Shown one piece after another: positions 39,242 through 64,000 of a stretch of DNA of 64,000 bases (its first letter is position 1; every line of letters starts with the position of its first letter). A model generated the notes under the pieces. It was not told the origin of the DNA. It saw only the letters and a list, made by a program, of their open reading frames with translations, and did not search any database. A program made the translations under genes and the position numbers. This DNA comes from a virus, in IMG/VR virus record IMGVR_UViG_3300031576_000022, positions 22,249 through 86,248 of that record; one strand, 5' to 3'.

Positions 39242-39270
39242 TTTTAATTGTTTTTTCCGTATTCCTGGTC

Positions 39271-39487
39271 AAATCCTTGAAATCCCGGTTAAGTCCCGTG
39301 GAGCTAAGTTCATATGGACAAACGATTTACGTTCCAAATCCCGAAATCCCGGGGTTCCCGAAAAAATGAAGCCGTCCATTTTGGGCGCGTACCTGATCCT
39401 ACCTATATATGTAATATTTTATTACAAATACAGTTACATACGTGGGTACCTATTTTTAATAAGGGAATTCGGGATTTCCGGGATTTG
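39271..39487. other. Candidate replication origin: AAATCCCG iterons around an AT-rich core
   Basis: (G/C)AAATCCCG occurs at 39279, 39335 and 39343 on the + strand and twice inverted at 39470-39478 and 39478-39487. The outer copies form a near-perfect inverted repeat: 18 nt at 39271-39288 match the complement of the right end at 17 of 18 positions. Between them is an AT-rich stretch (39395-39460). It directly follows the primase-MCM gene, the usual place for a phage origin. Not a gene: the short frames here have no support. Confidence 0.6.
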
Positions 39488-39491
39488 AAGG

Positions 39492-39527
39492 ATTTTGCTG
39501 GCGCCTTTCGAAAAGCGTCAGCAAAAT
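39492..39527 (+). terminator. 13-bp hairpin with 10-nt loop
   Basis: ATTTTGCTGGCGC pairs with GCGTCAGCAAAAT (one G-U), loop CTTTCGAAAA. Placed just after the candidate origin. A terminator for the primase transcript or part of the origin. Confidence 0.7.
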
Positions 39528-58265: not shown

Positions 58266-58742
58266 CTAGAGTCCTCCGATTGTTCCGTAATTGTATTGTT
58301 CAATACATTTGCTAACTAACGATATCGTCAATGATTTGCAATTACTTTTTGTGCTAATCGTATCTCTAGCCCAGTATCCTACTGTCCTGTCTAAATTATC
58401 TCCTGTAGCAAAGAAAAGTTCAAACGATCCGTCGTCAAGAATTTGCAGTTTGACATCAATAGCAAATCCTGGAGCTAGCAGATTCCTGTATGCCAATAGT
58501 TGTTGATGAATCCCATTGTTATCGATATTCAATTGGTTGTTCATTTTCCTCCAGTCTGGAAAGGTAAGCCGTCTTGGATAGTCTGGAAAGGTAAGCTGTC
58601 TTGGATGGTGCTTAATATTGATCCTAACACATTCAAGTTCTTTGATAAGCCAATTCATATATGCTTTACTAAATTCATCCTTTTCGGATTTAGGTATGAT
58701 TTTCTGATGATCCGTTGATTCTACGTTTTTGTCTGGAATCAT
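58266..58742 (-). CDS. Hypothetical protein with duplicated segment (158 aa)
   Basis: A 27-bp tandem duplication gives 'RQLTFPDYP' and 'RRLTFPDWR' side by side. The rest is alpha/beta. No family recognised. Confidence 0.5.
   Translation of the reverse strand: MIPDKNVESTDHQKIIPKSEKDEFSKAYMNWLIKELECVRINIKHHPRQLTFPDYPRRLTFPDWRKMNNQLNIDNNGIHQQLLAYRNLLAPGFAIDVKLQILDDGSFELFFATGDNLDRTVGYWARDTISTKSNCKSLTISLVSKCIEQYNYGTIGGL
58554..58607 (+). repeat. 27-bp in-frame tandem duplication
   Basis: Two consecutive copies (58554-58580, 58581-58607), 25 of 27 identical. Confidence 0.85.
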
Positions 58743-58826
58743 AGCGATTTTTCCGCTTCTGATTTTCCTGGACTTTTAGTCCTCGAAAACGATCGTATCA
58801 AAATCGTTTTGGAAGTCAAATACAGC

Positions 58827-59357
58827 TTAACTGTAACCATCACCGTAACCGTCACCGGAACCGGAACCGTAACCGGAACCGTAACCGTCACCGGAACCGT
58901 AACCGTCACCGTAACCGTAACCGGAACCGTAACCGGAACCGGAACCGTAACCGGAACCGTAACCGTAACCGTCACCGTAACCGTAACCGGAACCGTAACC
59001 GGAACCGGAACCGTAACCGGAACCGTAACCATCACCGGAACCGGAACCGTCATCGTAACCGTAACCGTCACCGTAACCGTAACCGGAACCGTAACCGGAA
59101 CCGTAACCGGAACCGGAACCGTAACCGGAACCGTAACCGGAACCGTAACCGGAACCGTAACCGGAACCGTAACCGGAACCGGAACCGTAACCGGAACCGT
59201 AACCGGAACCGGAACCGGTTCCGGTTGGTAATACATACGAGCTTCTTAAGATTTTCGAACTACATTTTTTCCCTATTTCCTCAAGGAAATCCGCTCTTAC
59301 TAATCTTGCATTTTTACCTTTAATTTTCAATAATAGCTTATATGTATCTCTTACCAC
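58827..59357 (-). CDS. Gly/Ser/Tyr repeat protein (176 aa)
   Basis: The first ~43 residues are ordinary ('ARLVRADFLEEIGKKCSS'), then ~125 residues of G-S-G-Y-G-S/G-D-type repeats. I recall phage proteins with the same leader before a G-Y/S/D repeat. The repeat is a flexible, possibly adhesive, low-complexity tail. GTG start, overlapping the stop of the next upstream gene. All six frames are open through the repeat, but only this frame has a non-repeat leader. Confidence 0.6.
   Translation of the reverse strand: MVRDTYKLLLKIKGKNARLVRADFLEEIGKKCSSKILRSSYVLPTGTGSGSGYGSGYGSGSGYGSGYGSGYGSGYGSGYGSGSGYGSGYGSGYGYGDGYGYDDGSGSGDGYGSGYGSGSGYGSGYGYGDGYGYGSGYGSGSGYGSGYGYGDGYGSGDGYGSGYGSGSGDGYGDGYS
58838..59221. 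repeat. Hexanucleotide satellite (~64 units)
   Basis: Units of the form G(G/T)(A/C)ACC in 6-bp register continue for about 384 bp, with few other variants, such as ATCACC and ATCGTAACC-type. Confidence 0.9.
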
Positions 59358-60335: not shown

Positions 60336-60528
60336 TTATTTATCCTTGTGTTTCTTTACGTTACGAAGTAGCGCACATAATAGTAGCGCGAAAGCCTTTC
60401 AAATCTTTCGCGCTATGGACTACGTTTCAATTATCAGCCTAGTGAAAATCGGACCATAAACTCTCCCAGGGTTTGAAGCTAGGAAAAACGCTCGCAACGA
60501 AATCGTTTTGTTTGCTATCTAGTGTTAT
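60336..60528. other. Non-coding stretch with hairpin
   Basis: No gene seen. It contains the 10/10/10 hairpin at 60385-60414 and the short direct repeat CTATCTAGTGTTATCTAG near 60512-60530. Confidence 0.5.
60385..60414 (-). terminator. 10-bp hairpin with 10-nt loop
   Basis: AGCGCGAAAG pairs perfectly with CTTTCGCGCT, loop CCTTTCAAAT. It lies after one leftward gene and before the next. Confidence 0.75.
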
Positions 60529-61329: not shown

Positions 61330-61896
61330 TTAGTCACCCCTCTTCAATCTCACATAGAGATTGTTTTCGTCGTCGCACTCTACTTCTAACCCTTCACACT
61401 TGGCGCTATCGACAATATTTCCTGAATCCTCCATGTTGATTTTAGTTACATACCACGACCTGCCTTCCGATTCGTCGTAGTAGTCATCGAATTTCAGGTC
61501 GAAAATACTAGCTAAATGCTTGATCGCATTATCCTCTTGCTCGTCCCATTCCTCATTTTCCAGTGTAGAGAAATCACTCCCGTCTAGAATGGGATAGCTC
61601 TCTATACTATCTTCGATTTCTTTAGCGATTCTTTCACAATCTGAACCGGGCTTGACAATCAAAATCTCAAACCAGCCACAAGCCCAGTGCCCGAAACGAT
61701 GATTTTCGTAGCAATCATTATCGGACGGATCTTGTGATACAGAAAGCATTTGTTCCGCCATGCGGAAATTGCTACGATCAAGTGCTTCGCTATTACGATT
61801 TTGTCCGACTGGTACGACTAGCCAATCTTGTTGGTCGTGTAGGAAAGACCCGGGATGATCGAATTCCGTTGGGCGATAGTCGCTATATTTTTGCAT
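61330..61896 (-). CDS. Phage hypothetical protein (188 aa)
   Basis: 'FGHWACGWFEILIVKPGS' followed by an acidic helix and 'YPILDGSDFSTLENEEW' is a pattern I recall in many phages (HWACGWFE...YPVLDE.DFS). Function unknown. Very acidic. Confidence 0.65.
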   Translation of the reverse strand: MQKYSDYRPTEFDHPGSFLHDQQDWLVVPVGQNRNSEALDRSNFRMAEQMLSVSQDPSDNDCYENHRFGHWACGWFEILIVKPGSDCERIAKEIEDSIESYPILDGSDFSTLENEEWDEQEDNAIKHLASIFDLKFDDYYDESEGRSWYVTKINMEDSGNIVDSAKCEGLEVECDDENNLYVRLKRGD

Positions 61897-62148: not shown

Positions 62149-62616
62149 CTATCTATCCGTGTTTATGTGCTTGACTTTCCATCCCATCGGGAGTTTCGCA
62201 TACATTTCGTACAGATTCTTTTCCATGTTCCTGATAGTGTGCTCGGGAACATTGTGCGTTTTCCGTGCAAGGCAAGTCTCGACGCTGGCATTGCAACAAA
62301 CAATGAGATGATCGTAGTCATATGCTTGTGCCGCGAGAATATACGGGGAAACGTTGTGGAGTTTCGACCCGCAGTTATCGACGATGATAGTATCAATTAC
62401 TTCATTGATGTTTCTGATATAAGATCTGAAGCATTTACCGTGGCACTCACCAAGCATGGTTGGGTTGAACTTATAATTTCCGTTACTGTCTATCATATAA
62501 TAATCTGATGATACGCAAATCGAGTCTAGATTATTTCGCATAAGGTATAGCGAATAGTAACTTTTGCCGCTGCCTGGTAAACCGGACATGATAACAACAG
62601 TCGGGCGATCAAACAT
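62149..62616 (-). CDS. P-loop kinase (AAA_33 / polynucleotide-kinase-like, 155 aa)
   Basis: The ATG at 62616 follows AGGGAGA. Walker A 'SGLPGSGKSYYS' (residues 11-22), 'ICVSSDYYM', 'IIVDNCG' and a lid helix with 'CLARKTHNVPEH' match AAA_33 kinases such as the 5'-kinase domain of T4 Pnk. It may repair RNA or DNA ends. Short, with no phosphatase domain. Confidence 0.7.
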   Translation of the reverse strand: MFDRPTVVIMSGLPGSGKSYYSLYLMRNNLDSICVSSDYYMIDSNGNYKFNPTMLGECHGKCFRSYIRNINEVIDTIIVDNCGSKLHNVSPYILAAQAYDYDHLIVCCNASVETCLARKTHNVPEHTIRNMEKNLYEMYAKLPMGWKVKHINTDR

Positions 62617-62650
62617 TGCGTGTCTCCCTGATATGTAATCAGTAAATGAC

Positions 62651-62680
62651 AGCGCCGACACTTGTTATGTTGTCGGCGCT
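62651..62680 (-). ncRNA. 10-bp hairpin with 10-nt loop (pair member 1)
   Basis: AGCGCCGACA pairs with TGTCGGCGCT, loop CTTGTTATGT. In the 5' leader of the kinase gene. Confidence 0.8.
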
Positions 62681-62689
62681 GTATTAGCT

Positions 62690-62773
62690 AGTATTGGTGA
62701 TATGCCATGATTCTAACATGGTCAACCTGCTAAGTCGCACCTAGCAGGTTGTTTCAGATAAAGCCTCAATACT
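62690..62773 (-). ncRNA. Three-way junction RNA candidate
   Basis: AGTATTG (62690-62696) pairs with CAATACT (62767-62773), closing a junction with CCATG/CATGG (62705-62721, 7-nt loop) and AACCTGCTA/TAGCAGGTT (62724-62750, 9-nt loop). The general shape is tRNA-like but no real T arm or anticodon arm can be assigned. Confidence 0.5.
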
Positions 62774-62896
62774 GAGGAACCGCGTGCAACAGTATATCTC
62801 GACCGTATCTCATATCCGTGGCGAACTGCACCGGTCCTAGCCTTTGCTCGCGATGTATTCGCACTCCCATTTACTGTAAAGCTACCAGTAAATATT

Positions 62897-62926
62897 AGCG
62901 CCGAATCTTGTTATGTATTCGGCGCT
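62897..62926 (-). ncRNA. 10-bp hairpin with 10-nt loop (pair member 2)
   Basis: AGCGCCGAAT pairs with ATTCGGCGCT, loop CTTGTTATGT, identical to member 1. The two stems differ at three pairs with matching changes on both sides, as in a conserved structure. Confidence 0.8.
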
Positions 62927-62945
62927 ATAGCGTTGACGCTATGTG

Positions 62946-63506
62946 TTACTCGTCATAATCGTGATTGTCAAGATGCTCTTGCAACGCATCCCTTACAATT
63001 GCGAACACTTCGCGCAATTCAGTATCCATGCCAAGCTTGATCCGCGTGTCCATGTTCGAGGATTCCATGCCGTACTCTTTTACTGCATCATCGCAATAAT
63101 ACATACGATCATTTCTGCTAGAAAGCCAAGCAAGATGCTCGTGATAGTGAATGTATGCGTTGTCAAGCCATTCTCCGAAACTCTCGTCACTATCCACGCT
63201 TTCATCTGAAAGGCTTGTGAGAGCATCGCCGATGAATTCATATCGCCAGTCGTCTGGCATCATGTCGCCATGAGCATCATGGCACATATCAATGATCCAC
63301 TGTGGGCAATCGTCTGCATGAATGAAGATACGGCCGATCCCAGGCGTTTCAAGGTCACCACGCTTGAAATGCGTGAGAACTTCCGCAGCAAGTTCACTGA
63401 TATTGGTAGCCTTGATTTTACGATCCACAGTAAACACTAGCCCTTCCCCTACTGGGAATGCAGTTTGATGATCACACAAAATGATAACAGCGTCGCGATA
63501 TTTCAC
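62946..63506 (-). CDS. Phage hypothetical protein (186 aa)
   Basis: The GTG at 63506 follows AAAGGAG. 'GDMMPDDWRYEFIGDAL', 'WLDNAYIHYHEHLAWLSSR' and 'YYCDDAVKEYG' match a family common in phages of several hosts (D-M-M-P-D-D-W-R-Y-E). Function unknown. The start lies in a strong hairpin. A dispersed-motif copy encodes F-P-V-G-E-G in the N-terminal part. Confidence 0.7.
   Translation of the reverse strand: MKYRDAVIILCDHQTAFPVGEGLVFTVDRKIKATNISELAAEVLTHFKRGDLETPGIGRIFIHADDCPQWIIDMCHDAHGDMMPDDWRYEFIGDALTSLSDESVDSDESFGEWLDNAYIHYHEHLAWLSSRNDRMYYCDDAVKEYGMESSNMDTRIKLGMDTELREVFAIVRDALQEHLDNHDYDE
63441..63457 (+). repeat. Dispersed motif, copy 20 (inside gene)
   Basis: CCCTTCCCCTACTGGGA on the + strand; coding strand reads F-P-V-G-E-G. 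Confidence 0.85.
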
Positions 63507-63783
63507 GCGACGCTGCTCCTTTAGTATAACAGGTATCATCAATAATAATTGTATGGTGGAGGGATATTGGAGTATCCGTCATATTCCAATATTCATTTAT
63601 CATATTTTTGGTATACATACTTGTCGTGTTGTCGATGTTCCATGCTCTAGCCTTACTCCACATTCCGATTGGTTTTCCGAATTTATCATGGAATCTTGCT
63701 ATAGCAGCATCTTCACTGTCTGCTATTACCTGTAATTCTTTCGATTCTTCGCAGAAGTCAGACGATACAATGTATCTTGCCAT
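63472..63783 (-). CDS. Hypothetical protein (103 aa)
   Basis: Alpha/beta protein with an N-terminal strand 'MARYIVSSDF'. Its 3' end overlaps the next gene by 35 nt. No family recognised. Confidence 0.55.
   Translation of the reverse strand: MARYIVSSDFCEESKELQVIADSEDAAIARFHDKFGKPIGMWSKARAWNIDNTTSMYTKNMINEYWNMTDTPISLHHTIIIDDTCYTKGAASREISRRCYHFV
63489..63514 (-). promoter_or_regulatory. 9-bp hairpin around a GTG start
   Basis: AGCGTCGCG pairs with CGCGACGCT, loop of 8 nt. The GTG start (63506-63504) spans the stem-loop border, 9 nt after AAAGGAG, so initiation may need melting or upstream translation. Confidence 0.65.
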
Positions 63784-63822
63784 TTTTGATTTTCTCCATT
63801 GTCATCGTGGCTTGTAAATGAA

Positions 63823-63852
63823 AACCCCGCAGCATTTTCACGCTACGGGGTT
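63823..63852 (-). terminator. 10-bp hairpin with 10-nt loop
   Basis: AACCCCGTAG pairs with CTGCGGGGTT on the leftward strand (one G-U), loop of 10 nt. It separates the pentapeptide gene from the next leftward gene. Confidence 0.7.
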
Positions 63853-63870
63853 ATGGATTATGATGATCTT

Positions 63871-64000
63871 TTATTTAGTGAGTTTCCATCCTGGAAATAG
63901 GATAGCGTCTCGTAAGTTTGCGCCTTGCAAGCTTGCACCTCGCAAGTTTGCGTCTCGCAAGTTTGCGCCTAGCAAGCTTGCGCCTTGTAAGTTTGCGTCT
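63871..64000 (-). CDS. Pentapeptide-repeat protein, C-terminal part (cut by window edge)
   Basis: The frame entering at 63999 reads A-N-L-Q-G, A-S-L-L-G, A-N-L-R-D, and so on, then ends 'FPGWKLTK' at TAA 63871-63873. A(D/N)LXX repeats fold as a right-handed quadrilateral beta helix. Some members mimic DNA (Qnr, MfpA) and inhibit gyrase. The N-terminus is outside the window. Confidence 0.8.
   Translation of the reverse strand, partial: DANLQGASLLGANLRDANLRGASLQGANLRDAILFPGWKLTK

Follow-up and report, generated by a model that had tools for sequence, protein, structure and literature searches.

Intrinsic (Rho-independent) terminators and phage mRNA boundary hairpins combine a G+C-rich, perfectly paired stem just past a gene with a T-rich tail on the coding strand. 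Hairpins in front of a gene can also serve as protein-binding sites, as in phage T4, where gp43 binds a hairpin before its own gene; in both T4 and RB69 this gene 43 operator precedes the start codon by about 40 bases, and the two hairpins agree in their top 10 bases and in their loop sequence, UAAC (PMC3014915). At the DNA level, IS200/IS605 ends and lox/Xer-type sites are palindromes in direct repeat with an identical asymmetric centre. The duplicated phage hairpin described here shares features with each of these systems and departs from each of them in others.

The window analysed here comprises the final 64 kb of a linear virus record of 86,248 bp in total. The capsid gene shows a distant relationship to its counterparts in Arthrobacter, Roseobacter and Rhizobium phages, and on this basis we assign the record to a tailed phage; scans with the capsid gene or with the kinase-like gene described below revealed no closer relatives in the collections searched. 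The region of interest is a gap (62617-62945, minus strand, possibly a leader) between two leftward genes, in agreement with the sequence-only reading. The upstream gene (62946-63542, minus strand) has no assigned function and carries a motif, AHGDMMPDDW, that is invariant among its relatives. The downstream gene (62149-62616, minus strand) encodes a P-loop kinase (AAA_33) resembling phage ATPase/polynucleotide kinase families and is preceded by the ribosome-binding site GGGAG. The AHGDMMPDDW protein family is present in several unrelated phage contigs, and in one of these (L003) its gene lies near a relative of the window gene 61330-61896, as judged by eye from the translations.

Based on the open reading frame lists and a codon-usage test the gap is non-coding. 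The claim that it holds no ORF at all was nearly right: a single leftward frame of 34 amino acids (62766-62870, minus strand) lies wholly within it, and we dismissed this frame as a gene because its codon-usage score falls below that of all 45 in-frame gene segments compared. It has no clear ribosome-binding site, and chance alone would yield a frame this long in 59% of randomised gaps. No sigma-70-like promoter site was found in the gap.

Two strong hairpins lie within this gap on the minus strand. Hairpin A (62896-62927, 11 bp, loop ACATAACAAG on the minus strand) starts 19 nt past the stop codon of the upstream gene, while hairpin B (62649-62682, 12 bp) ends 20 nt before the ribosome-binding site of the kinase-like gene. 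Both present the same 10-nt loop, CTTGTTATGT, on fully paired stems, as the sequence-only reading had described, and both belong to a longer direct repeat of 44 nt that also includes CAGTAAAT. The copies of this repeat (62640-62683 at hairpin B and 62886-62929 at hairpin A) are 246 nt apart and 82% identical. Six of their eight differences correspond to three stem pairs altered on both sides with pairing kept (C-G/T-A, C-G/A-T and A-T/T-A), two of them adjacent; the remaining two fall at the end of the stem or outside it, and there the copy around hairpin A has lost one outer pair. In simulations placing eight random substitutions, at least three such double-sided changes arose at a frequency of 3.4e-5 under a simple model of independent substitutions. 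The hairpins described earlier and their matched stem changes are real, and the duplicated pair probably acts at the RNA level.

Matched changes can, however, also stem from template switching, which can introduce multi-base matched changes in a single event and has been documented for RNA hairpins (PMC8794818), and the two hairpins were possibly kept perfect in this way. An unlikely alternative is a DNA-level repeat with no RNA function: either a 44-nt unit that was duplicated, with arms held complementary by template switching within the palindrome, or a recombination or transposon-end site of the lox-like or IS200/IS605-like kind. The direct orientation of the copies, the identical asymmetric 10-bp centre and the symmetric arms are consistent with such a site, and the two adjacent changed pairs are what a single template switch is expected to leave (PMC8794818). 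In contrast to IS200/IS605 elements and lox/Xer-type sites, neither a Y1 transposase (PF01797) nor a tyrosine recombinase (PF00589) was matched in the record, although mobilisation of an IS200/IS605-type element in trans, or a host recombinase acting on a lox/Xer-type site, may take their place. There are also only two copies: no other copy of the hairpin or of the 44-nt repeat was found in the 86-kb record, where the direct hairpin search covered the window and one further stretch and a pattern search completed the whole record, and other sites in the window matching the hairpin loop occur at chance level only. In addition, a DNA site leaves unexplained both the strand bias of the sequences following the hairpins and their positions at gene boundaries.

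These two properties fit hairpins at transcript boundaries. On the minus strand the stems have predicted stabilities of -16 to -21 kcal/mol and contain 6-8 G-C pairs, i.e. the G+C-rich stem of a terminator is present. The leftward tails ATATTTAC and CATTTACT are T-rich, with 4-5 T in 8-9 bases. In a comparison of terminator tail scores devised after inspection of the region and taking the best of three offsets, the leftward tail of A ranks in the top 5.6% and that of B in the top 2.4% of positions, while their plus-strand tails score unexceptionally. The same applies to four more leftward hairpins nearby (at 63823, 63486, 60774 and 60384), whose leftward tails are also T-rich and high-scoring; all six tails between 60.3 and 63.9 kb fall within the top 0.8-9% of positions by this post hoc, best-of-three measure. 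The gap at 60336-60528 is arranged in much the same way: a weak hairpin is found 19 nt past a stop codon and a strong hairpin before the next gene. Perfect hairpins are in excess in the window, with 23 found compared to 2-9 in randomised sequence. Chiefly because the pattern recurs in the same gene cluster, we prefer to regard hairpins A and B as a duplicated transcript-boundary hairpin of the leftward strand, a reading to which we give close to an even chance.

As a transcript-boundary hairpin, hairpin A would end the mRNA of the upstream gene, or define and protect its 3' end, acting as a weak intrinsic terminator or as a processing or stability hairpin. Hairpin B, directly before the ribosome-binding site of the kinase-like gene, might cause partial termination or shield the 5' end of the mRNA, and its action could uncouple expression of the two genes. 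Both hairpins differ from typical intrinsic terminators in their 10-nt loop, their weak, interrupted T tract, their duplication with an identical loop and the placement of the second copy directly before the next gene. Neither was listed by a strict terminator scan, owing to the weak tails and the long loops. Further points against the boundary reading are that terminators need no identical loop and that a terminator directly before the kinase gene leaves the promoter of that gene unexplained. As regards the loop, we estimate that 10 unchanged nucleotides would be seen roughly one time in ten given 8 changes over 44 positions, which is not unusual.

The identical loop on stems that vary in matched pairs is also what would be expected if a phage RNA-binding protein read the loop ACAUAACAAG, carried by a stem that varies, and controlled how the flanking genes are translated or processed. 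By analogy with the T4/RB69 gene 43 operator, hairpin B lies shortly before a ribosome-binding site, and the preserved loop contains UAAC as well, a match short enough that it may be due to chance. In contrast to that operator, the stem here measures 11-12 bp, the hairpin occurs in two copies, the downstream gene is a different one and there is no known binding protein. Conservation of the loop is by itself weak evidence for operators where 8 of 44 nt have changed; moreover, the record has only two copies, there is no candidate binding protein, and hairpin A lies past a gene rather than before one. We consider a role as protein-bound operators improbable.

The sequence-only reading had further proposed that the sequence between the hairpins forms part of one integrated 276-nt structured RNA around a three-way junction (62690-62773, minus strand) closed by AGTATTG/CAATACT. 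These two segments are present in the sequence, but the helix has a predicted pairing probability of only ~0.05 and competes with the local hairpin CCUCA-GUAU-UGAGG (predicted probability 0.56), and at least one inverted pair of 7 bp occurs in 41% of randomised cores. The junction is thus not supported. The two inner hairpins of the proposal, at 62723-62751 (minus strand, 13 bp including one G-U pair that reads A-C on the plus strand) and a small one formed by CCATG/CATGG, are both predicted well. Another local hairpin, ATTTACTG/CAGTAAAT (62869-62893, minus strand), comes from single-sequence prediction, in which CAGTAAAT pairs long range with an alternative partner, ATTTACTG at 62640-62647, with a probability of 0.86 compared to 0.14 for the local pairing.

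The whole region folds with a z-score of -7.5 on the minus strand and -5.8 on the plus strand, and the core between hairpins A and B with -3.8. Without the 62723-62751 hairpin and the ATTTACTG hairpin the core folds like its shuffles (z -0.6; its 5' part 0.0). Given this value and the improbable junction helix, the stability of the gap is accounted for by three separate hairpins rather than by an integrated fold. In a scan of the same sequence in 426 windows of 300 nt, about a dozen reached z near -5 or lower, values that are rough owing to the few shuffles per window. The most extreme, z -8, belongs to the plus-strand window from 39301. Overlapping it, another structured non-coding gap (39242-39494, z about -4) lies between two rightward genes and contains a long inverted repeat made of AAATCCCGG-type segments. 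The leftward orientation proposed for the element is favoured on modest evidence, i.e. the G-U pair in 62723-62751, the more extreme z on the minus strand and the leftward orientation of both neighbouring genes.

Taken as a dedicated structured non-coding RNA or cis-acting leader of about 280-330 nt, the region could, in one form, act as a switch between two pairings of CAGUAAAU, one local and following hairpin A, the other long range and following hairpin B. The minus-strand folding score, the matched stem changes, the G-U pair, the non-coding gap and the two predicted pairings of CAGUAAAU are consistent with this. The shuffle-like core left after removal of one hairpin and the low probability of the junction helix argue against it, as does the lack of any Rfam match or of a homologue in the collections searched, and we regard it as unlikely.

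Searches for relatives covered IMG/VR, 84,980 species genomes, phage and plasmid records and Rfam, and yielded no homologous hairpin or gap from which covariation could be drawn. The hairpin patterns required an exact loop or stem, so that diverged relatives could be missed. At the gathering threshold Rfam recognised tRNAs alone in the window, and by E-value the gap gave chance matches only (E about 1 or worse); a tRNA or tmRNA identity was tried and rejected. The loop-plus-flank pattern, run against viral and genome contigs, gave matches whose complementary stems never exceeded 3 bp and which we therefore attribute to chance, while the stem-plus-loop pattern had zero matches. The stem-only pattern matched at least 119 sites; none of the 80 inspected shared the loop or flank, and 15 of the 80 had T-rich tails. 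The pattern GGCGCTNNNATTTACTG proved too unspecific as a query. Blastn against phages and plasmids returned nothing or 25-base matches at chance level, and contigs L002-L004 and L158-L164, in which the upstream protein has relatives, contain no similar gap.

Several other repeats were observed towards the end of the window. A large tandem array at 58739-59357 consists of 12- and 18-base units, and its minus strand reads as VTVPVPV or GSGYGSG repeats; the overlapping long ORFs in several frames at this site are due to the tandem repeat. Positions 63890-64000, at the end of the record, contain 15-base tandem repeats resembling a sequence that codes for pentapeptide repeats, and a plus-strand ORF (63818-64000) is open at the record end. 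A second hairpin-like pair, 85% identical, is found in the same gene cluster as hairpins A and B (58786-58811 and 60485-60510), one of its members 19 nt past a stop codon.

The perfect hairpins and their matched changes are no proof of a new RNA, a caution that follows from the failure of the junction in its control and from the fit of the hairpins to the boundary pattern of their own gene cluster. It is improbable that a new phage RNA, with same-loop twin hairpins read by a phage protein or a two-state CAGUAAAU fold, controls the kinase-like gene. If the locus turned out to produce a discrete transcript or to be recognised by a binding protein, it would represent a compact new phage regulator.
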